DNA of 33,200 nt from Snowella sp. (GTDB lineage Bacteria > Cyanobacteriota > Cyanobacteriia > Cyanobacteriales > Microcystaceae), in the NCBI GenBank assembly GCA_003249095.1, contig QBMS01000036.1, positions 1 through 33,200 on the forward strand. The letters are read 5' to 3'. Below are positions 4,008-33,200 of this stretch, in pieces (position 1 is the stretch's first letter; each line of letters starts with the position of its first letter). The position numbers were made by a program, and so were the translations under genes. A model generated the notes under the pieces. That model was given only the letters and a program-made list of their open reading frames with translations. It was not told the origin of the DNA and did no database searches.

Positions 4008-5306
4008 TTACAGCACCCGCAGCACACTAGGAATGGATTTAATCGCCTCTAATTGCTCCATTTCTGCTAAAGCGGCCCGAAAATTGCCTTCCTTGACGTT
4101 ATGGGTGACAACAACAATTTCCGCACAGTCTTCCTGAAAACCAATTTGCACAACGGATTCCAAGCTGACTTGATGATTGCCAAAACTCATGCCCAGATGA
4201 CCAATTACGCCAGGCACATCATAGCAAAGAAAACGGGCATAAAAGCGGGTTTCTAGGTTCTCAATGGCGGTTACTTGACAATAGTGCTGATGGACACAAC
4301 TGAGCAGAGGATCGAGATCATCAGTGACTTCACTGCTAAACAAAATTCCCACAATATTCAAAATATCGGACACAACGGCACTAGCGGTAGGCCCTGCCCC
4401 TGCTCCCCGTCCATAGAACATAACCTGCCCCAGGGGATCGCCTTCTACCAAAATTCCGTTATACACACCGTTAATATTGGCTAAGGGATGATCTTTCGGC
4501 ACTAAAGTTGGATGAACCCGTAATTGGAGATTTTCTGAGGCTTCTCCCTGCAATCCTTCCGCGATCGCCAGTAACTTGATCACAAACCCTAATTTGTCGG
4601 CATAGGTAATATCCACTGCGCTGACCTGGCGAATACCTTCACAATAAACATCTTCTCGTTTGACCCGACCGCCAAATCCCAGGGAAGCGAGGATCGCAAT
4701 TTTATCCGCCGCATCGTAACCATCCACATCGGCACTGGGATCGGCTTCAGCATAGCCTAATTTTTGAGCTTCGGCTAAAACTTCTCCAAAATCTGCCCCC
4801 TCAGTGGTCATTTGGGTCAAAATATAGTTCGTTGTCCCATTGACGATGCCCATAATGCTCTGAATGCGATTTGCGCCCAAGGATTGTTTGAGGGGTTTAA
4901 TAATGGGAATACCACCGCCCACCGCCGCTTCCAAAAGGACATAAACCCTCGCTTCATTGGCCGCACTATAAATTTCATGGCCATAACGGGCAATAACCGC
5001 CTTATTTGCCGTAACAACGTGTTTTTTATTGGCAATAGCTTTTAAAATCAGCGATCGCGCAGGCTCCAGACCGCCCATCAGTTCGACAATAATATCAATG
5101 TCAGGATCACTCACAATAGAGTCTAAATCAGTGGTCAAAACCCCAGTCGGCAGATCAACCCCACGAGTTTTCTCCAGCGATCGCACCCCTACCCGATAAA
5201 TTTCGATTTCCTTTAATAAAGGACTACGGCCCAACGGGTCTTGTAAAATTGCCACCGTTCCCGTGCCGACTGTTCCCAAGCCCAGCAAACCAATCTTAAA
5301 CGCCAC
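4008..5306 (-). CDS. hom: Homoserine dehydrogenase
   Basis: A 432-residue enzyme that reduces aspartate semialdehyde to homoserine with NAD(P)H, the branch point to threonine, methionine and isoleucine. The N terminus has the Rossmann dinucleotide-binding motif GLGTVGTG. The central catalytic domain carries GIVNGTTNYILTQM and the family signature region AEADPSADVDGYDAADK. The last 80 or so residues form an ACT domain (VPGVIGHLGMSFGNHQVSLE), the usual site of threonine feedback inhibition. Length is normal for the monofunctional, ACT-containing bacterial form. The ATG start leaves no room for a longer N terminus before the Rossmann fold. The upstream 200 bp has no recognisable regulatory element. 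Confidence 0.97.
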   Translation of the reverse strand: MAFKIGLLGLGTVGTGTVAILQDPLGRSPLLKEIEIYRVGVRSLEKTRGVDLPTGVLTTDLDSIVSDPDIDIIVELMGGLEPARSLILKAIANKKHVVTANKAVIARYGHEIYSAANEARVYVLLEAAVGGGIPIIKPLKQSLGANRIQSIMGIVNGTTNYILTQMTTEGADFGEVLAEAQKLGYAEADPSADVDGYDAADKIAILASLGFGGRVKREDVYCEGIRQVSAVDITYADKLGFVIKLLAIAEGLQGEASENLQLRVHPTLVPKDHPLANINGVYNGILVEGDPLGQVMFYGRGAGAGPTASAVVSDILNIVGILFSSEVTDDLDPLLSCVHQHYCQVTAIENLETRFYARFLCYDVPGVIGHLGMSFGNHQVSLESVVQIGFQEDCAEIVVVTHNVKEGNFRAALAEMEQLEAIKSIPSVLRVL

Positions 5307-5506
5307 TTTGAATGTTCCTCTGCCTTTCTTTCCTTATCTAGATTAACGGTTCAGTGCCACAAATTGAGCCATTACTTTGACATAAGTTGTTATCTCAATC
5401 AACACGATTCCTTCAGTAAATCGCTCTAGTTTGACTTTTTGGCGGTTATTCCCATGTCTGATCCCGACGCTAAAATAGTAACTCCCCTCAAAATTAATCT
5501 AAATTT

Positions 5507-5758: not shown

Positions 5759-5787
5759 AATTAATTTTCTCCGAACGAGTTTTGTAA
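5755..5787 (+). pseudogene. Remnant of YoeB/RelE-family toxin start
   Basis: TTG at 5755 overlaps the antitoxin stop codon (TTGA) and reads KLIFSERVL, then a stop at 5785. This matches the first residues of YoeB-type toxins (KLxFSE...), whose genes normally overlap the antitoxin end in just this way. Only nine or ten codons survive before unrelated sequence takes over, which suggests a deletion or rearrangement junction near 5785. Confidence 0.5.
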
Positions 5788-6016
5788 GAAATATAAACCA
5801 AAACCGAAGTCAGAACGGCGATTTTGTTGGGGCTGTCGTTTGTTGCCAAAAATTCTGAAGGTGAAAGACCGCAAAAAACATTCGCCTGGACAAATGCTTT
5901 TACCCTGGGGTGAAACTGTGGCAAAGAATCCAAGGATTCAAGCGGTGGCAGAAAAGTTTGTGGCGGCGAATGCCTATGATCCCAAAATGGCGATGCGTTT
6001 TTTTAATGATTCTTAG
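5765..6016 (+). pseudogene. C-terminal fragment of an unidentified gene
   Basis: In the frame running on from the antitoxin there is an open stretch of 83 codons from 5765 (just after TAA at 5762) to TAG at 6014. It has no ATG near its beginning, but its composition looks protein-like: a basic stretch (KKYKPKPKSERR), a CxxC motif (FCWGC) with another Cys 18 residues before it, and a helical tail (RIQAVAEKFVAANAYDPKMA). I do not recognise the family. It could be the 3' end of a gene that lost its 5' part at the same junction that destroyed the toxin. The 6017-6177 stretch behind it holds nothing I can support. Confidence 0.35.
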
Positions 6017-6177
6017 TTTTTATGGTTGGATGAAGAAACTGACCTGACCAGATTTATTCTTGTTTTTTTATCTGAAATTGGATGTGGTGGTGTCAGGTAA
6101 TGAATTGAGGAAAACCCTATGACTCGTAAAAAAAAGCCCGAAAAATAAGGAAAAAAATTTTCTAAGTCTGTGATATA

Positions 6178-8523
6178 TTACAGGTTACAAGTCGTTGCGC
6201 GAGAAAAGATAGTTACTCTTTGGAGCATCAGATAAGGTAGGTGTGCGTGATTGCTGCCATCTAATAAAAAAGTTAGATCATCATAGTTCAACCAGTCTCC
6301 GCCCCTTTGCCAACCCACTTGGTCAGCAAATTTTTCATACATATCTGAATCATACTGCCCAGGGACACCGCCACAATCCATCCAGACTTTTTTCTGCACA
6401 GAAAAGCCAAATTTACCGTTGCTGTAATCTACCCAGAGCTTATCAAGAGTGCGTAAATCCTCACAAGGAAAATTTTGAATATCTTCCACGCTTAACCACT
6501 GATCAGCCTCCTTGCCCACTATTTGTAGCATTAGACGGCTCGTTTCCTGGTCTGCTTCTTTCCACTGACCATTTTTCAAAAAAGTTTCTAATTGTTGATA
6601 AAGAGAAGTTTCAACCGTTGACTCTAAAGCAATTATCGCCTGTTCTAAGTTAGGATCAATACGACGGTTAGCCGCCTTTAAACACTTAAAACATTCGTAG
6701 GCTAAATCCCTCGCAGCTTGTTGTTCAAACTCCAATAAATTTGTAATAAATTGAGTCGCATTGGCTAAACTGGCATACATCAAAATCGTATCCTTCCATT
6801 CCGTTTTTTGCCAATTTGCTAACAATAAACTTTCCTGATTTGTATCAATAATCTCACAAGCCGATAGATAACTCTGGAAATGACGATGGGCAAATTCATA
6901 CTCGTGATCAACTTTAACTAAAAGTTCACTGACTTCTTCCATTTGTTTTAAAAATTCTGCATTTTCCACTGTTGAATCGAGAAAATCTAACCCTTTTCGC
7001 AATTGAGCTAATAATAAATATTCCTCAATGCGACTGAGGGTTCCCTGCACCATAAACAAAGCGAGTTGCTGTAACACTCGTTGACTATCTTGGAGGGGTA
7101 ACAACAGATCAATTTTTTTCGCTAAGGGACGATCGCCGAGTTGGAGACGAATAATTGCCCGATAGAGATCAACCCTGCGATCGGGAAGACTCGCGCCATC
7201 ATAACTCGCGTGTAAATTGACAATAATCGCCAGCATCAGAGGGCTTTTTGCTAAATCTTCTAATTCGGGACGACTGGTTAACTGCTGTAATAAATCTTGC
7301 GTTCTTCGATAGGCTTCCGTCGAAACCGCAGGATGATTGGGGTCAGCACTAAAATGTTTTTCACGGCTGAGATACCAAGATTGGATAAATCGTTCCCGTT
7401 GATCGGCATTTAAACCCTTGATATAAAAAGACAAATTGAACTTTGATTCGGGATCAAAATCTAAACGGTAAGCCGCAGGACGAGAGGTTAAAATAAACAC
7501 TGCATTGGGATAGTCCCGCATCTGTTGACCCACCCACCGACTAACCAGAGAACGGGGTTTTTCTTCGCCTTCTTTTCCCTGCTCTTTGACCTCATCAAAA
7601 CCATCAAACATGACCAACATTCCCGCCTTTTGACTGAGCCAATGTTTAGCCCAATTCGGGGGAAGTTTCACATCCTTTCCCCCTGGCAGGTAGGGAAGAT
7701 GGTATTTTTCAATCAAAGTCGGTAAATCAGGCTTTTCTTCGAGAATGACCTTCTGCCATTGCCGAAAATCTAATAAAACGGGCAGTAATTGGGGGACTTT
7801 GTAAGGAGGCTGATTATACAGTTTTTGGCAGTAAATATAGGTGACATGACGCAATAGGGTTGTTTTGCCGTAACCGCCCCAGGCTTGGATCACCATACTG
7901 CGATAGATGGATTCCTGGGGACTCCGTTTCAAAATATCCCAAATCCTCAGTTGATCGGCTTTTTGGAGAAATTCCTGAATACTTTTTTGCGAATGAAACC
8001 CGCCAGGCATGGGTAAATCGTGACCATCGGGCGATCGCCAAGGATTACCACTTAATTCCAATGGTACAAAAACATCTTTTAATAACGGCTTAAAGGTATT
8101 TAAACCTTCTGTTCGGGAGAAATCAACCTCATTTCCCTGACAATGCAAATATTTATCTTCTGTACCTGCGAGTTGCCATTTTATTGCCTGATCCAGCTTT
8201 TCTTGCCAATTTACTAAACTTTCTGCGTCCTTATCTCCTCGACCTTCATAAATCGCCTGTAATTTTGCGAGAAAACCCTTGCTATAGGCAGTCCAAGCCA
8301 CTGCTAAACTTGTTAGGGGAAAGGTAATCAGAGCTTGCATGATGTGGGAATCTTTAATAAATGAAACCAATAACCAGCCGCTACTTCCCAACGGAAACCA
8401 CTGAATTAGGGTTATAGTCACGTTATTCAGCCATTTTTGTGTTTTAGCTGGGGAAGCAAGATCGCTCGTATCCTGTTGTTTTTCAGATTTAGATTCTTCC
8501 TTATCAGACTGCTCTTCTGCCAT
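6178..8523 (-). CDS. NACHT NTPase with C-terminal GUN4 domain
   Basis: A 781-residue multidomain protein. Residues 1-30 are charged and low in complexity; 34-85 hold two likely membrane segments. A NACHT-type P-loop module follows: Walker A AWGGYGKTT (214-222), Walker B GMLVMFDGFDEV (301-312), sensor-1-like FILTSRPA (343-350), and the typical end-of-module motif EYEFAHRHFQSYL (541-553). Residues about 638-781 match a GUN4 domain: LDKLWVDYSNGKFGFSVQ, DQVGWQRGGDWLNYDDLTF and AHLPYL. GUN4 proteins bind Mg-porphyrins or bilins and stimulate Mg-chelatase; stand-alone GUN4 lacks an NTPase. The likely reading is a STAND-type switch whose tetrapyrrole-binding domain is sensor or output. The gene stands alone (87-bp gap to the upstream gene's 5' side), so partners are not evident. 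Confidence 0.87.
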   Translation of the reverse strand: MAEEQSDKEESKSEKQQDTSDLASPAKTQKWLNNVTITLIQWFPLGSSGWLLVSFIKDSHIMQALITFPLTSLAVAWTAYSKGFLAKLQAIYEGRGDKDAESLVNWQEKLDQAIKWQLAGTEDKYLHCQGNEVDFSRTEGLNTFKPLLKDVFVPLELSGNPWRSPDGHDLPMPGGFHSQKSIQEFLQKADQLRIWDILKRSPQESIYRSMVIQAWGGYGKTTLLRHVTYIYCQKLYNQPPYKVPQLLPVLLDFRQWQKVILEEKPDLPTLIEKYHLPYLPGGKDVKLPPNWAKHWLSQKAGMLVMFDGFDEVKEQGKEGEEKPRSLVSRWVGQQMRDYPNAVFILTSRPAAYRLDFDPESKFNLSFYIKGLNADQRERFIQSWYLSREKHFSADPNHPAVSTEAYRRTQDLLQQLTSRPELEDLAKSPLMLAIIVNLHASYDGASLPDRRVDLYRAIIRLQLGDRPLAKKIDLLLPLQDSQRVLQQLALFMVQGTLSRIEEYLLLAQLRKGLDFLDSTVENAEFLKQMEEVSELLVKVDHEYEFAHRHFQSYLSACEIIDTNQESLLLANWQKTEWKDTILMYASLANATQFITNLLEFEQQAARDLAYECFKCLKAANRRIDPNLEQAIIALESTVETSLYQQLETFLKNGQWKEADQETSRLMLQIVGKEADQWLSVEDIQNFPCEDLRTLDKLWVDYSNGKFGFSVQKKVWMDCGGVPGQYDSDMYEKFADQVGWQRGGDWLNYDDLTFLLDGSNHAHLPYLMLQRVTIFSRATTCNL

Positions 8524-18832: not shown

Positions 18833-19246
18833 TTACTCTTCTTGTTGTAGCGTTTGTAAGATTGTTTTGACTTGAATTTGGTTTAAAGAAACTTGTTCCT
18901 GCAAGTTTGCCCAACAGTGACCTTTACCCTGATTTGTCAAGGGTTGACTACGTAATTGGCGCAATGCACTGATACAAGAAGGACAGTCACAACTAAATAA
19001 TGCTACTGCGGCATCACTTTCTGCCTCACTGAAATCGAGAGGTGGCACATCGGAAGAAGCGAGTAAGATGCCTTGATTCGAGCGATGGTTTATGGTTGCT
19101 TGTAAATTTGTTGGTGTAGCATCACAGGATACGGAAATGGGCGCGGCTTCGGCGGCTGATGCCTGATTAACCATTAGAGTCACGGTCAAAATTGAACTAG
19201 CAAAGGCGGGAAAAGCGATTAAATTAAGCAAAAATCTGTAGTTCAT
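18833..19246 (-). CDS. Secreted Cys-rich protein of unknown function
   Basis: A 137-residue protein with a signal-peptide-like N terminus (hydrophobic segment ending near ASAAEA, about residue 34). Five cysteines remain: C41, then a cluster C86-D-C88-P-S-C91, and C111. The cluster (FSCDCPSCISALRQL) and the following KGHCW are the only striking features; they could form disulfides or bind a metal or heme-like cofactor, but no CxxCH motif is present. I do not recognise the family. It is transcribed alone, convergent with sbcC and followed upstream by a repeat-rich region. Confidence 0.65.
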   Translation of the reverse strand: MNYRFLLNLIAFPAFASSILTVTLMVNQASAAEAAPISVSCDATPTNLQATINHRSNQGILLASSDVPPLDFSEAESDAAVALFSCDCPSCISALRQLRSQPLTNQGKGHCWANLQEQVSLNQIQVKTILQTLQQEE

Positions 19247-20804: not shown

Positions 20805-21608
20805 TTGCCTTTGACTTCTGCCTATTTGTTAGTTTCTCACGGGAGTCGCGATCCCCGTCCTCAAGTCGCGCTGGATCGACTTGCCTATCTGGTGGATCAA
20901 ACATTGGCGACCAGAGAAATGAGTCGGGTCAATCATCGGGCAGTTTCATCGCCAAGAAATTTGACAGAAGGCGCAACTACTCTGCTCTGTAATCCTGAAA
21001 GCATCAGGGTTAGAACGGCAACCCTAGAATGTCATCCCCTGCCCTTACATCAGCAAATGATTGAGGCGGTCTATTTGAATAAAGCATCGGGATTTTCTAC
21101 CTTAAAGATTGTGCCGCTTTTTTTACTTCCAGGCGTTCATGTCCAGATAGATCTTCCCTCGGAAATTGCGATCGCGCAGTCTAAATTAGGAAATTCAATT
21201 CAATTAGAATTATGTCCCTATCTAGGCAGTTCTCCCCAAATTCTAGAAATTTTAGCTCAAAGGTTTAATCCAGATCCCACAGAAGTCCGCATTATCCTTG
21301 CTCATGGCAGTCGTCGGGCAGGAGGTAATACGGTGATTGAGACTCTAGCGAATCAATTAAACGCGATCGCCTGTTATTGGTCAGTGGCTCCGAATTTAGA
21401 CACAATTCTCTCTAATTTAGACCTCGACAAACCCCAAAAAATCACGATTTTACCCTATTTTCTCTTTTCAGGCGGTATTACCGATGCGATCGCGACCCAG
21501 GTGCAACAATACCAACAAAAATTTCCCAAAATTTCGTTTAAAATAGGCTCTCCGCTAGGAGCAACCCCCGAACTCGCCCAATTAATCCTTGATCTAGTCA
21601 ATCCATGA
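20805..21608 (+). CDS. sirB: CbiX/SirB-type sirohydrochlorin chelatase
   Basis: A 267-residue protein with two CbiX-like halves. The first has SHGSRDPRPQ and the second AHGSRRAGGNTV; these histidines are the presumed metal-binding residues of the family. Between them is IVPLFLLPGVHVQIDLPSEI, typical of the fold. The start must be TTG (20805 or 20811), because an in-frame stop lies at 20784 and no ATG is available before the conserved SAYLLVSHGS. Residues about 45-75 appear longer than I expect for the family. Its last codons overlap cobA by 4 bp (ATGA), so the two are translated together; the pair would give siroheme for nitrite and sulfite reductases. Fe versus Co specificity cannot be read from the sequence. 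Confidence 0.88.
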   Translation: MPLTSAYLLVSHGSRDPRPQVALDRLAYLVDQTLATREMSRVNHRAVSSPRNLTEGATTLLCNPESIRVRTATLECHPLPLHQQMIEAVYLNKASGFSTLKIVPLFLLPGVHVQIDLPSEIAIAQSKLGNSIQLELCPYLGSSPQILEILAQRFNPDPTEVRIILAHGSRRAGGNTVIETLANQLNAIACYWSVAPNLDTILSNLDLDKPQKITILPYFLFSGGITDAIATQVQQYQQKFPKISFKIGSPLGATPELAQLILDLVNP

Positions 21609-22390
21609 ATCAGCCGCTTGTTGAATCCAATCCTAATCCTATTTTCGGTAAGGTTTATCTCGTCGGTGCGGGGCCAGGCGATCCAGGCTTAATGACGATT
21701 AAAGGAAAAACCCTTTTGGAACACGCTGATGTGGTAATCTATGATGCCCTCGTCAGTCCTCCCATCTTGGAAATGATTAATCCCCAGGCAGAACGGATTG
21801 ATGCAGGGAAACGTAGGGGTCGTCATTCCAAGTTACAGGACGAAACTAATCAATTACTGATCAAAAAAGCCCAATCCCATGCCGTTGTGGTGCGCTTAAA
21901 AGGGGGCGATCCCTTTGTTTTTGGTCGAGGGGGAGAAGAAATGGAAGCTTTGATCCAAGCAGGAATTGCGGTAGAAGTGATTCCAGGCGTTACATCTGGC
22001 ATTGCGGCTCCTGCCTATGCGGGAATCCCTGTCACCCATCGAGATTATAGTTCTAGTGTCACCTTTGTCACGGGCCATGAAGTAGCGGGAAAATATCGAC
22101 CCCAAATCAATTGGACAGCGATCGCCCAGGGGTCAGAAACCATCGTGATCTATATGGGAGTCCATAATTTACCGAATATTTTGCCCGAACTATTGGCGGG
22201 TGGATTATTGCCCGAAACCCCGATCGCCCTCATTCGTTGGGGAACGCTTCCTGATCAGTCCCAATTAATCGGAACCCTAGAGACTATTGTTGAGCAAATT
22301 GAAGAAAAACAGTTTGAAGCTCCCGCGATCGCAGTAATTGGTCGGGTAGTAGATCTCCATTCTTCTCTATACTCAAGTAAAGCCCCCTAA
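21605..22390 (+). CDS. cobA: Uroporphyrinogen-III C-methyltransferase
   Basis: A 261-residue SAM-dependent enzyme that methylates uroporphyrinogen III at C2 and C7 to precorrin-2, the entry to siroheme and cobalamin. Motifs: VGAGPGDPGLMTIKG (20-34), DALVSP (47-52), VVRLKGGDPFVFGRGGEE (95-112) and GVTSGIAAPAYAGIP. It is the stand-alone form without the CysG dehydrogenase domain, coupled to the chelatase gene upstream. The oxidation step from precorrin-2 to sirohydrochlorin has no gene in this window. The last three codons and the stop (GCC CCC TAA) lie inside a dispersed repeat that begins at 22381. Confidence 0.96.
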   Translation: MNQPLVESNPNPIFGKVYLVGAGPGDPGLMTIKGKTLLEHADVVIYDALVSPPILEMINPQAERIDAGKRRGRHSKLQDETNQLLIKKAQSHAVVVRLKGGDPFVFGRGGEEMEALIQAGIAVEVIPGVTSGIAAPAYAGIPVTHRDYSSSVTFVTGHEVAGKYRPQINWTAIAQGSETIVIYMGVHNLPNILPELLAGGLLPETPIALIRWGTLPDQSQLIGTLETIVEQIEEKQFEAPAIAVIGRVVDLHSSLYSSKAP

Positions 22391-23774: not shown

Positions 23775-25187
23775 TTATTGGGTTCTAACCGTGAGAATTT
23801 GCGGCGGCGTAGAATCAGGAGGATAGAGCAATTCCACCTGGACTAAACGGCGATCGCCTGGAGGCATGGTTAGATTAATTAAAGATTCTCCCTTTTGGCC
23901 CCTGCGTTGAACGAGATGGAAATAACGAGTTAAAGATTTGCCACTGTCATCGGGATAAGTAATTTTGACAGTTCCCCGAAAAAAAACGTTTTTGGGACTA
24001 GGAACGAGGAATTTTAACTGTCCATCGGTAATTTGATCCTTTTTGATCGGGGTTTCGATCGCGATACCAACCTGTTGAGTTTGTTGAGTGGAATTGTAGA
24101 GGGGCAGACTAAGACTGTATTGCATTCCGTAGTTCCCATGAGATTCATAGGCTGAATCGGGATAACGTACCGCCATTTTAGCCGCTTGACTTTGATTTGT
24201 GCCTAATCTTCCCCCTTCTAGGGTGCTAATGGGGTAGGAAAAAGCCTGACCCTGGGCAGGAATACTTAAACTTGTTCCATTGGGAGTATCGGTTAAGGTT
24301 GCTTGCCATTGAGAACCAATCGAAACTCCTGCCACTCGGCTATAAATACGACGTTGAGTATTACGAGGAATGCGATCGCGGGGAGTCATCAAGTTCCCCC
24401 TCTTGAGTAAACCCTTCCAATCCTCTAGGCTCGGTGAAATATCTTGACCCATTGCATCTTTTTTAGAATACATAGCCATACTAGCCGCCTGAACTTTCCC
24501 ATCACTGCTGAGGCGAAAATAGGCCGAAATCCCATTCCGATTCAAATTTGTGGAATTAACGGGAACGGGCATATTCAATAACATTTGGGATTCCCCAGGA
24601 GCCAACGTAATTTGGGGAGGAAGATTGGCGGGACGTTTCCCCCGTAAAATATCCACCATACTACGACTGCCTGGCCCTGCAAACACTGAGCCATTGGGGT
24701 TTTCTACCTGGGGAGGCAAATCCAAGAAAGGAGCCTCTGAAGTGATATAACTTGCGCCCTGTAAAACATCAATTGTTACGGGCTTCCTGCTGTCATTAAA
24801 GAGTAATATTCCCAAATAAAGGGTTCTGTCCTGACGTTGGGGACTATCCTTGACGACATGGTGAGCAAAGACATCAAAACGCCCTTTAAATTGATAATTC
24901 AGATGGGCATAGGGATTGGCCATCCCGACAGAGGACAGAGTCGAAAGAATGATCCCTTCATTGAAGATTAATTCGGGATTATTGCTATTAAAAACGGGAA
25001 TACTATCTAGTTTGCCAGGTAAGGGACGAACAGGTTGGGAAACACTGATTATCTGGGGTTCGGGCGGTTGCTCGATCGCGGGAGTCGGGGTAACAATACC
25101 AGGACTCCGACGAGAAGCAGGAGACGGGGGAATAACGGGAATGGGAATCGCTTGGGCAAAAATCAGTGGGAGGACAAACGGTAACAT
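23775..25187 (-). CDS. Secreted DUF3370-family protein
   Basis: A 470-residue protein. The first 15 residues are hydrophobic (MLPFVLPLIFAQAIP) and suggest export; a proline-rich linker runs to about residue 50. The rest is beta-rich and matches my memory of the cyanobacterial DUF3370 family: VFNSNNPELIFNEGIILST, RTLYLGILLFND, GPGSRSMVDILRGKRP, APGESQMLLNMPVPV and a VQRRGQKGESLINL end. Length is usual for the family. Function is unknown; it stands alone, with downstream palindromic repeats. Confidence 0.78.
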   Translation of the reverse strand: MLPFVLPLIFAQAIPIPVIPPSPASRRSPGIVTPTPAIEQPPEPQIISVSQPVRPLPGKLDSIPVFNSNNPELIFNEGIILSTLSSVGMANPYAHLNYQFKGRFDVFAHHVVKDSPQRQDRTLYLGILLFNDSRKPVTIDVLQGASYITSEAPFLDLPPQVENPNGSVFAGPGSRSMVDILRGKRPANLPPQITLAPGESQMLLNMPVPVNSTNLNRNGISAYFRLSSDGKVQAASMAMYSKKDAMGQDISPSLEDWKGLLKRGNLMTPRDRIPRNTQRRIYSRVAGVSIGSQWQATLTDTPNGTSLSIPAQGQAFSYPISTLEGGRLGTNQSQAAKMAVRYPDSAYESHGNYGMQYSLSLPLYNSTQQTQQVGIAIETPIKKDQITDGQLKFLVPSPKNVFFRGTVKITYPDDSGKSLTRYFHLVQRRGQKGESLINLTMPPGDRRLVQVELLYPPDSTPPQILTVRTQ

Positions 25188-25754: not shown

Positions 25755-26312
25755 ATGGCTGACCTTTTCGATAAATCATCCAGCTTTCGACTTTCTCCCC
25801 TCATTCAAATTACCCTCATCAGTTTATATCTAGCTCTGACGATTCCCTTGCCCTTTTTGGCGCAATTTACCCAGTCACCGATCTCCCCTCTCATTCTCTG
25901 GGTCGGAATCGCGATCGGTCTCGTCATTTTAATTGGCTTTTTAAGTGAAAAAGTTGTCCTAGATGAGGCCAAAATCGAAGTTTGTTATCCTCGTTGGATT
26001 CCGAGCCAATTTCGTCGCGGTTGGAGCCTAAACTGGACAGAAATTCAAGATTTAAAACTGCGAACCACAGGACAAGGGGGATTGGTCTATTATTTTGTGA
26101 CTCCTAAAGGTGATCGCGCTTATTTATTACCTATGCGTGTAGCAGGATTTGCCCGTTTAGTGGAAATGGTTCAAGCGAAAACAGGTATTGATACAAAGGA
26201 TATTCGTCCCCTCGCTCAACCTTGGATGTATTTAACGTTGTTTGTTTTTACGGTATTTTTATGGCTGATGGATGGATGGACTATTTGGACAGCAATGACT
26301 CAAGTGATTTAA
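25755..26312 (+). CDS. Conserved membrane protein with PH-like core
   Basis: A 185-residue protein. Two N-terminal hydrophobic helices (about 18-36 and 46-62), a beta-rich soluble middle with EKVVLDEAKIEVCYPRWIP, WSLNWTEIQDLKLRTTGQGG and YYFVTPKGDRAYLLPMRV, which looks like a small bacterial PH-type domain, and one C-terminal helix (about 158-178). Function unknown; the pattern is that of short conserved cyanobacterial membrane proteins. The 250 bp behind it hold no gene or structure I can support. Confidence 0.7.
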   Translation: MADLFDKSSSFRLSPLIQITLISLYLALTIPLPFLAQFTQSPISPLILWVGIAIGLVILIGFLSEKVVLDEAKIEVCYPRWIPSQFRRGWSLNWTEIQDLKLRTTGQGGLVYYFVTPKGDRAYLLPMRVAGFARLVEMVQAKTGIDTKDIRPLAQPWMYLTLFVFTVFLWLMDGWTIWTAMTQVI

Positions 26313-29862: not shown

Positions 29863-31839
29863 CTAAAGGGAAGGATTGGCACTATCCACAGCAGAAGGGG
29901 ATGACTCTAGGCTGGGTTCAGGCGGTGCAACGGGAGCGGGAGGAGCAAGTAAACGTCGCCAATCGGAGATTAATTCTCTAGAAGTACTGTAGGCCGCACT
30001 ATCTTGAGGAATGAGACGAGCTAGGCGAATTGCTTCCGAAAAAGAGGAGACACTGGCTTTTTCCTGGGCGATGGAGAGTAGCTGATAACTCCAGGTATTT
30101 AAGGCTTGGAGTCGTTGGGAACTTGCTTCGGTATAGGAAGGAATTTGGTTCACTAATCGAATGGCACTAGTGAGGGATTCGGGAGTCCGATTGGCGGCGA
30201 TCGCGTAGGCTCTTTGTAAATTTTTCTGAGCTTGAATTTCGGACTGCCAACGACCAATTTTTTTGCGGGCTTCTGGGTAGAGGGCGCGACCTGAACGAAT
30301 TTGGGATGCAGTATTGATGGCGGATTGATAATCTTGGTTATTGCCCAGGGCATTGGCTTGATCCAGAATGGGTTGATCTTCTTGGGTTTCTACCGTGCTT
30401 TGCCAACCCTGAATTTCCTTACGGGCTTCGGAATAGAGGGCGCGATCGCGATTAATCAAACTGGCTTGACTAATGGCTTGTTGGAGGTCGCTAATATTAC
30501 CAGAAGTCGCTAATTCCTTTGCTTTATTGAGAATAGGGCTATCTTCCGTTACTTGTACCTGTTTTGTCCAGGTGGCAATATCCTGTTTTGCGTCTCGATA
30601 ACGGGTATTACTACTCGGAATCATTTGAGCCTGGGCGATCGCGGCATTGAGAGCGTCAATGGTACCAGGTTCGGCGGTTTGTCGAGCTTGAGCCAATAGA
30701 GTTAAATCCTGTACCTCCGTTTTCCAGCCCGCAATTAATTCCTGGGCGACTTGATAAAGGGGGCGGTTTTGATCCGTAATGCGTTCGGCCGTTGCGATCG
30801 CCGAATTGAGCCCCTCCAGGGTACCCATCTGAGCATCGCTCCCTGAACTGCCTAAGATTTCCCATTCATTGAGTTCTTCCGTAGAAAAGGAACCATCAGG
30901 TAAACGACCGACCACACTTGATAGAGTCTGCCAATCCTTATCATCAATTAACTTTTGGATGGTTTCACCGATTTTTTCCTTGGCTTTAGTAATTAACCGT
31001 TGCCCCTCTTCATAGGCATAACTGGTAGAGGGAACTTTAGCCGCTTCGGCGATCGCCTGTATCCAATTATCAATCCCACCGCGACGAAAGATATTGAAAG
31101 CAGTATCGAGTTTTCGGCTTTCTTCCTGAGCGATCTGGATATTTTTAACGGTTTCATCGTATTTGATCGTCGCCCAATAGCGATTATCGATATTTAACAG
31201 TTTTACTCCCTCACGGAAGGCATCATTCCACCGTGCCTTGCGTAAATTACTTTCTACCGCCGCAAAAATTTCTTCCCCTTCCTGCCAGGTTTTTTGCCAA
31301 TGGGCGATGCGGTCTTCGACTAATTTATAAGCCTCTACATGATCGGGAATGCGTCTGACGGTTTTGATGGCTTCCTCTAACTTCCCAGACTGAAACTCAT
31401 CTTCAGCCAAATTGAGGATGGAAGTCGCCCATTCTTCAATATTTCGTTCAACTTCGGCATGGAGGGGATGATCCGCAGGTAGGGACGCAACCAATTCGAT
31501 CGCCCGTAATAGACTATCCACCGTACGTTCATCGGCTGAGAGTTGAGCGCAATACAGTCGCATGGAAGCAGAAGCAACTGGCCAAAAAACCCTAGAACAT
31601 TGAGGCGTTTTGGGTAATTTCAATAACAAAGTCGTCGCGCCAAAACCGACACCGCTTGACAGCAAAATGAGAATCAATGCCCAGGATTGTAGGGGAAATC
31701 GTTCAACGGTCTCCTGAATGGGTCGGAATAAGCGTTGAGCGAGGGACGAGTTCTCTATTGCCAGAGGTTCTTGTTCAGTCGGCGGTGTGGGATTAGAGGG
31801 GAGTAAGTTATTGGGGTTTATATTCATTGGCACACCCAT
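29863..31839 (-). CDS. Membrane-anchored helical repeat protein
   Basis: About 658 residues with ATG at 31839 (ATG at 31827 is also possible; both are in frame). A proline-rich cytoplasmic N terminus, one membrane helix near residues 50-72 (WALILILLSSGVGFGATTLLL), then some 570 residues of helical repeats. Units such as LDQANALGNNQDYQSAINTA, ALYPEARKKIGRWQSEIQ and YRDAKQDIATWTKQVQ recur, about 35-75 residues apart, each with the pattern 'Y..A...I..W'. The C-terminal 25 residues are proline/serine rich. It resembles cyanobacterial TPR-like proteins sometimes named chromosome segregation ATPase, but I see no nucleotide-binding motif. Function unknown. Confidence 0.8.
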   Translation of the reverse strand: MGVPMNINPNNLLPSNPTPPTEQEPLAIENSSLAQRLFRPIQETVERFPLQSWALILILLSSGVGFGATTLLLKLPKTPQCSRVFWPVASASMRLYCAQLSADERTVDSLLRAIELVASLPADHPLHAEVERNIEEWATSILNLAEDEFQSGKLEEAIKTVRRIPDHVEAYKLVEDRIAHWQKTWQEGEEIFAAVESNLRKARWNDAFREGVKLLNIDNRYWATIKYDETVKNIQIAQEESRKLDTAFNIFRRGGIDNWIQAIAEAAKVPSTSYAYEEGQRLITKAKEKIGETIQKLIDDKDWQTLSSVVGRLPDGSFSTEELNEWEILGSSGSDAQMGTLEGLNSAIATAERITDQNRPLYQVAQELIAGWKTEVQDLTLLAQARQTAEPGTIDALNAAIAQAQMIPSSNTRYRDAKQDIATWTKQVQVTEDSPILNKAKELATSGNISDLQQAISQASLINRDRALYSEARKEIQGWQSTVETQEDQPILDQANALGNNQDYQSAINTASQIRSGRALYPEARKKIGRWQSEIQAQKNLQRAYAIAANRTPESLTSAIRLVNQIPSYTEASSQRLQALNTWSYQLLSIAQEKASVSSFSEAIRLARLIPQDSAAYSTSRELISDWRRLLAPPAPVAPPEPSLESSPSAVDSANPSL

Positions 31840-31939
31840 CAACGTGGGCTAGGAGCATTATGGGTCGTTTTAAAAAAAACAGATCAAATTTTTGCCCATC
31901 TTAACACTACTTTGCTAAATTCCAACCTTCTTTCGTTCC

Positions 31940-31976
31940 GCGATCGCATCTTCTCCATTAAGAAAAATGCGATCGC
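31940..31976. terminator. HIP1-pair hairpin behind the sorting-tail protein gene
   Basis: GCGATCGCAT at 31940-31949 and ATGCGATCGC at 31967-31976 form a 10-bp inverted repeat with a 17-nt loop, 35 bp behind the stop of the minus-strand gene at 32011. It is built like the hairpin at 2903-2940. Confidence 0.4.
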
Positions 31977-32010
31977 CTTTCAATTATTTATTTGCAGTTC
32001 AAAGTAAGAA

Positions 32011-32619
32011 TTATTTGAGATCAAGATCACTGGAATTTGAAGATTTATATTTCTTCCAAATCCCAATGCCAAAAAGCAGGGTAGTACCCACAACAGGAAG
32101 TGCATCTGTTTCCCAAGGAACTGCCTGAATTTGAGCATTACTCAGGGTCAAGGTTGATGAGCCTGTTGAATCAAAGAGATCAATAACTCCCATTGCAACC
32201 TGATAATTGCCAGCAGTAGCAAAAGTATAGCTATAGCGACTACCAGTTGACAGCACTTGGATTGCGTTATTAATAGCAACAAAAGCTTGATCCTGACTGT
32301 CAATGTTAGATGTCCAATCAAAGCTAAACCGATCCCCTGCATTGAAGTTCAAGGTTTGTTTAATAGCTGAACCGAAGGTAGTGTCGGCATCAAGAGAACC
32401 TGAAGTAAAACCCAGAAAGGATTCCAAAGCATCCACGTCAACTGTATCATCTGTTCCTGATTGAATAACGGTGTTGTTATTCGTAACATCTCCAATAGCA
32501 TCAAAAGTGAATAAATTAACATTAATAGAGTAGGCAGGAGTAGAAAAGGCGATCGCACAGAGACTAGAGGCAAGAGCAAGACCGAGAGTTGTTAGAGGGG
32601 TTTTAGATTGAGTCTGCAT
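32011..32619 (-). CDS. Secreted protein with C-terminal exosortase-type sorting tail
   Basis: About 202 residues from ATG at 32619, chosen because it gives a standard signal peptide (MQTQSKTPLTTLGLALASSL ending near PAYS); an in-frame start 36 bp upstream adds an odd extension. The middle is beta-rich and Asp/Thr/Ser-rich (LFTFDAIGDVTNNNTV, YSYTFATAGNYQVAMGVIDL). The end has the three-part sorting layout: VPWETDALPVVG, a hydrophobic helix (TTLLFGIGIW) and a basic cluster (KKYK). This corresponds to the cyanobacterial variant of PEP-CTERM-like tails. The protein is expected to be exported and processed at the envelope; ligand or role unknown. Confidence 0.75.
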   Translation of the reverse strand: MQTQSKTPLTTLGLALASSLCAIAFSTPAYSINVNLFTFDAIGDVTNNNTVIQSGTDDTVDVDALESFLGFTSGSLDADTTFGSAIKQTLNFNAGDRFSFDWTSNIDSQDQAFVAINNAIQVLSTGSRYSYTFATAGNYQVAMGVIDLFDSTGSSTLTLSNAQIQAVPWETDALPVVGTTLLFGIGIWKKYKSSNSSDLDLK

Positions 32620-32667
32620 AAAATTTAGGGGAAGAAATAAGGGAGAATAAAACAAGGGAAAACTGGG

Positions 32668-33200
32668 TTAAAACTGGAAGTTGTTGGGATTGTTTAATTG
32701 TGTGGGAGTAATATTATCAACTTGTAGGAAATTACGAGCGATCGCGCTTCCTGTTAGTCCATCCCGATCAATCTGGAGGAAAGTATGAGCTGAATTTAAT
32801 CCTGTTCCCTGAATAAATTTGATATAACCATCGGCAATAGGATCGGAGCCTGTATAACCGAGGCTAGAGAAGAGTTGGGCAAAGACGAGTTTATCTTCTC
32901 CAACAGTAAAGTCTGCAATCCGTTGACCGACATCCCGCATATTGGTAAACACAAAGGAGTCATTACCACCGCCCCCTGTCAGGGTTTTTGCACCTATCCC
33001 GCCTGTCAGATAATCAGGGCCAGCCGTCCCGACAATTGGGTTCCGACCATTGTTAATTAAAGGATTACCTTGAATTTCATTAAGGTCAGTCACTCCAATC
33101 GTTAACTGTTTCTCAAAGGTTAAGCCGCCTTGATCGGTGGTACGAACTCGGATGCTGTAACTATTTTTAGTTTCAAAATCAAAGATTCCATTACTTCGGA
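32668..33200 (-). CDS. C-terminal part of a cadherin/RTX-like surface protein (5' end beyond window)
   Basis: The reading frame is open to the right edge; stop at 32668-32670. A start at 33093 would be internal, because the frame upstream encodes the end of a cadherin-like repeat (FDFETKNSYSIRVRTTDQGG then LTFEKQLTIGVTDLNE). After it comes an RTX-like segment, GPDYLTGGIGAKTLTGGGGN, with DSFVFTNMRDVGQRIADF and DKLVFAQLFSSLGY, a C-terminal layout common in large cyanobacterial calcium-binding, type I-secreted proteins. Only two degenerate glycine-rich turns are visible. It lies 48 bp upstream of the sorting-tail gene (ATG 32619). Confidence 0.82.
   Translation of the reverse strand, partial: RSNGIFDFETKNSYSIRVRTTDQGGLTFEKQLTIGVTDLNEIQGNPLINNGRNPIVGTAGPDYLTGGIGAKTLTGGGGNDSFVFTNMRDVGQRIADFTVGEDKLVFAQLFSSLGYTGSDPIADGYIKFIQGTGLNSAHTFLQIDRDGLTGSAIARNFLQVDNITPTQLNNPNNFQF

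Follow-up and report, generated by a model that had tools for sequence, protein, structure and literature searches.

Hypervariable, translated 3' ends of cyanobacterial GUN4 genes: what looks like an undescribed way of diversifying receptor proteins, with a transposase as putative rewriting agent

The 3' ends of many cyanobacterial GUN4 genes share a plan of three parts: a 5' border is followed by a variable stretch, V, and this in turn by a conserved element, E. V varies between fixed flanks, E is entered in any reading frame, and selection keeps V open for translation. A transposase is linked to these genes, and their GUN4 domains are joined to effector modules. Bacterial receptor proteins thus seem to be diversified here in a manner that has not been described before, by a rewriting agent that is putative. 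We propose that the encoded proteins are receptor-like switches with V as a recognition tail, and that this tail is rewritten from time to time via E, most likely with involvement of the transposase; we give this reading an even chance. The window, that is, the whole stretch of 33,200 nucleotides that was analysed, is one entire contig (C167) of a 4.6-Mb cyanobacterial genome. It includes the following features.

6178..8523, minus strand: coding sequence of a membrane-NACHT-GUN4 protein of 781 amino acids (ORF, translation, Pfam, full-length relatives in several genomes)
8287..8421, minus strand: two hydrophobic segments, residues 35-53 and 61-79, likely membrane helices (Kyte-Doolittle)
7375..7896, minus strand: NACHT NTPase domain, residues 210-383 (Pfam NACHT; family-invariant P-loop and DG.DEV)
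6223..6606, minus strand: GUN4 domain, residues 640-767, with its core kept and its pocket end missing (Pfam; sequence match to PDB Gun4 structures)
6236..6246, minus strand: 5' border of V, GCACACCTACC (codons for HLP), the local form of GGACACCTCCC (direct reading)
6212..6235, minus strand: V, 24 nucleotides, TTATCTGATGCTCCAAAGAGTAAC, not G/T-rich in this copy and unrelated to V in the compared relatives (sequence comparison)
6089..6211, minus strand: E, about 123 nucleotides, TATCTTTTCTCGC to TTACCTGACACC, which holds the end and the stop codon of the GUN4 gene (conservation)
5777..6016, plus strand: C-terminal remnant of a RAYT-type Y1 transposase, residues 177-255 (tblastn, 72 of 79 residues identical to the intact copy at locus L054)

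The 5' border in many GUN4 genes is GGACACCTCCC, which provides the codons of GHLP, or a variant of it. Element E has sharp ends and constant spacing, and runs from TCTCTTCTCTCGC to TTACCTGGCACC. The proteins have C-terminal endings of three kinds, for example LFSRIETCKL, LLSHRDL and SFLASRLVNC, which are a single DNA sequence, approximately CTCTTTTCTCGCATCGAGACTTGTAAACTGC, read in three frames. Stop codons are present within E in each frame. E occurs in 126 of 390 genomes (a reversed control pattern occurs in one), and it lies directly behind GUN4 at 94 of 102 sites. Genomes that were examined have one to nine copies, usually together with one RAYT, and the copy in the window is the only one in its genome. 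RNAalifold predicts three pairs only and no strong fold common to E sequences, and short hairpins are in modest excess, weaker than typical REP sites. No Rfam family corresponds to the 3' region, and E was not found in viral contigs. In one locus (L239, genome G022, contig C115), tandem E copies about 900 nucleotides apart (minus strand, 5281-5309 and 6183-6211) lie downstream of a TIR-like gene, with no recognizable GUN4 in front of them.

V is 14 to 142 nucleotides long, is mostly G/T-rich on the coding strand, and cannot be aligned between genes despite flanks that are 85-99% identical. Its relationship to the reading frame was analysed at 78 sites whose frame had been assigned from the GUN4 profile, independently of whether an ORF was open. 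V lengths modulo 3 are distributed 27/23/28, and the frames in which E is read are distributed 27/21/30 (chi-square p=0.45). The base composition of V (G about 0.39, T about 0.31, A about 18%) is similar at each of the three codon positions, which sets it apart from the coding DNA just upstream. Lengths and composition that are blind to the frame imply that both originate from a process at the level of DNA. Stops in V number 2 in 1414 in-frame codons versus 143 in 2832 codons of the other frames (p=5e-23). This near-absence of in-frame stops implies that selection keeps the frame open into E.

The closed plasmid NZ_CP060823.1 of Cylindrospermopsis curvispora has three GUN4 genes (23934-25064, 31956-33050 and 77492-79975) that are identical at 216-217 of 220 positions from E onward and, in the closest pair, at 374 of the 400 positions upstream. 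Their V stretches of 68, 36 and 42 nucleotides have no similarity, and E is read in different frames. Similarly, V is unrelated between G380 and G386, whose identity is 0.92 upstream and 0.95 downstream, and among three genes of G028 with similar flanks. For 26 pairs with an upstream identity of at least 0.80, mean V identity is 0.46, compared with 0.42 for random V pairs. Orthologs of two species (G209 and G236), which are 98% identical upstream, have an identical V of 61 nucleotides; V can therefore be stable, and in some lineages rewriting would be infrequent or inactive. Because V identity is either complete or near the random value of 0.42, whole replacement fits better than gradual mutation. 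This small set of close pairs suggests that V is swapped wholesale rather than mutated step by step. No V was common to two genes of one genome in the closest pairs among 107 V sites, and one V that was searched in its own genome, allowing up to three mismatches, had no second copy. When strains were compared by their plasmids in Stanieria, Fremyella/Tolypothrix and Leptolyngbya, the GUN4 genes were invariant; these genes lack E and hence are uninformative. At about codon 621, dS jumps from 0.2-0.5 to 0.6-1.8, so the GUN4 ends have a history unlike that of the NACHT module. Positive selection on point mutations in GUN4 was considered and rejected, because dS climbs together with dN at this codon; the joint rise instead implies exchange or replacement, not selection on single sites.

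The linked transposase is a Y1/IS200-like, RAYT-type protein of about 255 amino acids whose gene lies directly behind E in 11 of 47 longer loci, always convergent with GUN4. A profile of this protein matches 72 of the 390 genomes. Among the best 30 loci by this profile, 29 adjoin GUN4 within 81-351 nucleotides, and the thirtieth is at a contig end. Linkage to GUN4 is absent from the more distant copies, which occur mainly in small-genome families. E is present in 46 of the 51 genomes with the close form of the transposase versus 80 of the 339 others (p=2e-20, kinship among genomes being ignored). The NHxH (HUH) motif and the YIH.N / Y122 region are invariant in seven intact copies. These proteins match Y1_Tnp at 1e-17 to 1e-19, and score 62.5-69.6 bits with NCBIfam REP_Tyr_transpos, below its cut-off of 80. 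The G+T content of V is 0.731 with and 0.703 without a close transposase, which is not a significant difference (p=0.26). The remnant in the window is convergent with the GUN4 gene, lacks the N-terminal part with the HUH motif, and is the only match to the linked transposase in its genome.

Named records with the arrangement are the Cylindrospermopsis plasmid described above and plasmid pNe_2 of Nostoc edaphicum CCNP1411, in which E has diverged. The former (L372, positions 1-49000; also L253 and L373) carries five GUN4 genes, the linked transposase, MoxR, AbiEii-/HicA-type genes and a CRISPR-Cas locus, and to judge by this gene content it is a defence-rich replicon. A sister group of transposases (family f23) is found in small-genome cyanobacteria (G166, G297, G356, G218 and G102), with up to six matches per genome; at five of its loci (L328-L331 and L347) neither GUN4 nor E adjoins.

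A sequence-only reading of the window had described the gene as a NACHT NTPase with intact Walker A and Walker B motifs, two likely N-terminal membrane helices and a complete GUN4 domain. The ORF at 6178-8523 is real, and encodes 781 amino acids on the minus strand. Its NACHT domain scores 35.6 bits against a Pfam cut-off of 26.7 and includes the P-loop GGYGKTT from residue 216 (Walker A) and LVMFDGFDE at about residues 303-311 (Walker B), followed by TSRPAAY. Both hydrophobic segments have moderate 19-residue Kyte-Doolittle means (1.30 for residues 35-53 and 1.45 for 61-79), and of 63 relatives whose N terminus is complete, 58 have at least one such segment; membrane helices thus remain likely, not certain. 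The GUN4 domain is only partly as described. Its Pfam match is strong (135.1 bits, cut-off 29.2, E=2.5e-39) and spans model positions 6-127 of 141, but the end that is missing carries the LxNxLR motif and forms the pocket. A structural model of the GUN4 end, predicted from two sequences, reached a pLDDT of only 41.7.

The genome of the window encodes seven GUN4 domains and has 13 NACHT matches. The GUN4 set comprises a canonical Gun4, kinase-GUN4, caspase-GUN4 and CHAT-AAA-GUN4 proteins, two short proteins, and the window protein; the Pfam domain GUN4_N is present in the canonical Gun4 and absent from the window protein. PADLOC found no NACHT defence family for the window protein, and its only match is PD-T4-6 (model PDLC04062), through residues 589-766, which is the GUN4 part. 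The PD-T4-6 phage-defence protein is presumably a kinase, and some members may be kinase-GUN4 proteins. NCBIfam EruA and DS8 match weakly in one relative. Elsewhere in the window, genes for a CbiX-like chelatase and a tetrapyrrole methylase lie side by side at 20805-22390, about 12 kb from the GUN4 gene, and the ORFs at 18833-19246 (137 amino acids), 25755-26312 (185 amino acids) and 29863-31842 (659 amino acids) have no Pfam match at 1e-5.

NACHT-GUN4 proteins are widespread in cyanobacteria: a search for the domain pair, which the earlier reading had advised, used a profile of the part N-terminal to GUN4 and revealed relatives in many genomes. GUN4 is behind the NACHT module in all 27 of the best further loci class-wide (L080-L106), and in 44 of 60 further loci, a sample picked partly for unusual length. 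Some relatives that lack GUN4 have a lectin-type FGE-sulfatase domain in its place, and some relatives carry both. NACHT-GUN4 relatives at L060 (7235-10600) and L118 (5298-8873) end in an FGE-sulfatase (C-type lectin) domain, a kind that is diversified by diversity-generating retroelements (DGRs). By sequence, GUN4 and FGE-sulfatase appear to be two kinds of variable module that occupy one slot in NACHT relatives. Tandem GUN4 arrays also exist, and proteins with two GUN4 domains (L052, 7970-10927; L073, 4207-6204) have a read-through or degenerate E between them, like a recombination seam for GUN4 duplication. The plasmids searched contain no full-length NACHT-GUN4 relative, though GUN4 genes of the V/E type occur there, and the phages searched gave no match.

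The modules joined to GUN4 in genes that have the V/E 3' end or lie beside the linked transposase are of the NACHT, TIR, kinase and, in seven cases, caspase types. Cell-death and defence proteins use effectors of these kinds, and the architecture suggests a role in defence. Fusions of GUN4 to kinase, caspase, trypsin and TIR have already been described (PMC7159879, PMC1262709, PMC2853523). The NACHT-GUN4 domain pair is thus not new, as the earlier reading had supposed it might not be.

In the proposed mechanism, an N-terminal effector part, which is probably formed by membrane helices in the window protein and by caspase, TIR or protein kinase in sister genes, would be coupled to the C-terminal GUN4 domain, and in the window's subfamily this coupling would run through the NACHT NTPase. 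The GUN4 core would act as a scaffold on which the former tetrapyrrole pocket segment has been replaced by the translated V tail, and V would form the recognition surface. Whatever frame V ends in, E would close it. Occasionally, V would be rewritten wholesale with E as the site: the dedicated RAYT-type HUH/Y1 transposase, acting in cis or in trans, may open the DNA at E, and the gap may be refilled as V by G/T-biased synthesis. Site-specific cleavage of single strands is established for HUH/Y1 enzymes as a family, which makes the transposase the obvious candidate for the opening step. Recognition of a ligand by V would then be relayed by NACHT or another effector to a defence or cell-death response. 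Only a transposase remnant is left in the window's genome, so its copy of V is probably frozen. Counting against the proposal are the 80 genomes that have V and E and lack a close RAYT, the similar composition of V with and without RAYT, and the weak structure of E. A more specific version is possible and is offered tentatively: the system might be a bacterial counterpart of junctional diversity, in which the transposase at E gives rise to untemplated, G/T-rich 3' ends of random length. Receptors with NACHT, caspase, TIR and kinase modules would then face their ligands with the rewritten GUN4 tail.

The sequence-only reading had instead suggested that the tetrapyrrole state gates the NTPase switch, or that GUN4 is the output. 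In Synechocystis Gun4, F196 and R214 bind tetrapyrroles (PMC8967248), and binding also involves the LxNxLR motif around N211 (PMC10156173). Rockwell and Lagarias noted that Asn211 is kept by no member of the GUN4 paralog clade, and in Chlamydomonas GUN4 an N219G mutant still binds porphyrin, so loss of N211 alone is insufficient to stop binding (PMC10156173). F196, N211, L213 and R214 are kept in 29 of 29 canonical Gun4 proteins. Among 83 NACHT-GUN4 domains, F196 is kept in 4, N211 in 2, L213 in 5 and R214 in 2. In the window protein (Synechocystis numbering), F196 is replaced by L, L209 by Y, N211 by M and L213 by Q, and R214 corresponds to a gap; W189 is kept, and W192 is conservatively Y. 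Segment 209-222 has the lowest entropy of the comparison in canonical Gun4 (0.48 bits per column) and the highest in NACHT-GUN4 (3.2 bits). The earlier reading had looked to a profile match and to the pocket residues as checks on its GUN4 domain; the match was obtained, and the residues are lost. Because they are lost, bilin binding by the window protein is unlikely, and the N219G mutant makes weak porphyrin binding by NACHT-GUN4 proteins at most conceivable.

Gating by tetrapyrroles is nevertheless consistent with the kept GUN4 core, with W189 and the conservative Y, and with the tolerance of porphyrin binding to N211 loss. Against it, variability within NACHT-GUN4 peaks in the very segment that binds tetrapyrroles in Gun4, and the pocket residues are almost never retained; we consider this model quite improbable. 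An output role for GUN4 is unsupported, because the domain is C-terminal, the usual position of the sensor in STAND proteins, and in sister genes it follows effectors, caspase and TIR among them. The main rival to a rewritten recognition tail is that E and RAYT constitute a selfish REP-like element at GUN4 3' ends, with V as a scar of insertion, excision or repair that is useless to the host. RAYTs are kin to IS200 transposases, and their presumed activity is the mobilization of small DNA repeats. The low copy number of E, usually with a single RAYT, would suit such an element, as would the RAYT-less copies, the decayed RAYTs (including that of the window) and the tandem GUN4 genes with an internal E, as expected of a recombination seam. 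However, a stop within a scar would cost nothing, and V is open in the GUN4 frame. Moreover, E is nearly confined to GUN4 genes, and V changes while the DNA up to 220 nucleotides from the start of E stays 98% identical. With the open frame speaking against it, we regard a scar-leaving element as rather unlikely.

V might also be acquired by gene conversion from silent cassettes or GUN4 paralogs (compare pilin and vlsE), with no new synthesis. The jump in dS near codon 621, which gives GUN4 ends a separate history, and the existence of tandem GUN4 arrays are consistent with conversion, whereas the only V common to two genes belongs to orthologs from different species, and neither the closest pairs nor the one V searched revealed a donor copy within a genome, which makes this route improbable. 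A DGR, with reverse transcriptase and template repeat, appears the least probable source. DGRs are known in cyanobacteria, where they diversify C-type-lectin domains on similar effectors (PMC7517822), and a lectin-type FGE-sulfatase domain follows GUN4 in some relatives. However, neither the variable length and frame of V nor its low A content fits adenine-directed substitution; the draft assembly of G022, which has nine E copies, contains no PF00078 reverse transcriptase match; and orphan E copies in the genomes examined are not template-like.

Canonical Gun4 (Synechocystis sll0558; PDB 1Y6I, 4XKB and 4XKC) has the GUN4 core in common with the window protein through the GHLP turn. In contrast, the window protein lacks GUN4_N, F196, LxNxLR and R214, has V in place of the C-terminal segment, and is fused to an effector and an NTPase. 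GUN4 paralogs and fusions in kinase, caspase, TIR and VMAP ternary systems (PMC7159879, PMC8195603) are cyanobacterial, have the same domain combinations, and have been predicted to act in conflict or cell death. In the parts of these two sources available to us, GUN4 is taken as a tetrapyrrole sensor, and a variable tail, frame-blind element or linked transposase is not mentioned. Bacterial NACHT/STAND defence proteins have the same NACHT switch, an N-terminal effector and the same C-terminal sensor position; the sensor of the window protein differs in that it is a GUN4 domain with a hypervariable tail, and its defence role is predicted.

DGRs resemble the V system in that a receptor gene is locally hypervariable at its 3' end, the downstream site is fixed and the effectors are similar. 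In contrast to DGRs, the V system has variable length and frame, no adenine signature, and no template that was found. A DGR survey (PMC7517822) mentions GUN4 solely as one of the domains that occur together with lectin domains, and an HUH survey that proposes domestication and single-strand editing does not name GUN4. RAYT/TnpA-REP proteins and their REP sequences (PMC2817692, PMC6006769) share with this system the HUH/Y1 single-strand endonuclease family and an arrangement of one gene with several dispersed sites. However, E is about 123 nucleotides long, is located at GUN4 genes, and has few copies and a weak hairpin, and the transposase falls below the NCBIfam cut-off. REP sequences are defined as high-copy short palindromes with a GTAG-type tag, and E, with one to nine copies, modest hairpins and no shared fold, is not of this kind. 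No variable tail or linkage was described in the literature that we searched on GUN4 with hypervariability, DGRs or IS200, in which subscription journals were thinly covered.

If the proposal is right, cyanobacteria diversify receptors without recourse to reverse transcriptase or to any visible template, and a function would be found for a family of transposases that has long had none assigned. Many proteins with a GUN4 domain that have been called pigment sensors would then need re-reading. Even if another agent does the rewriting, public sequences such as NZ_CP060823.1 directly display a variable tail flanked by fixed borders.
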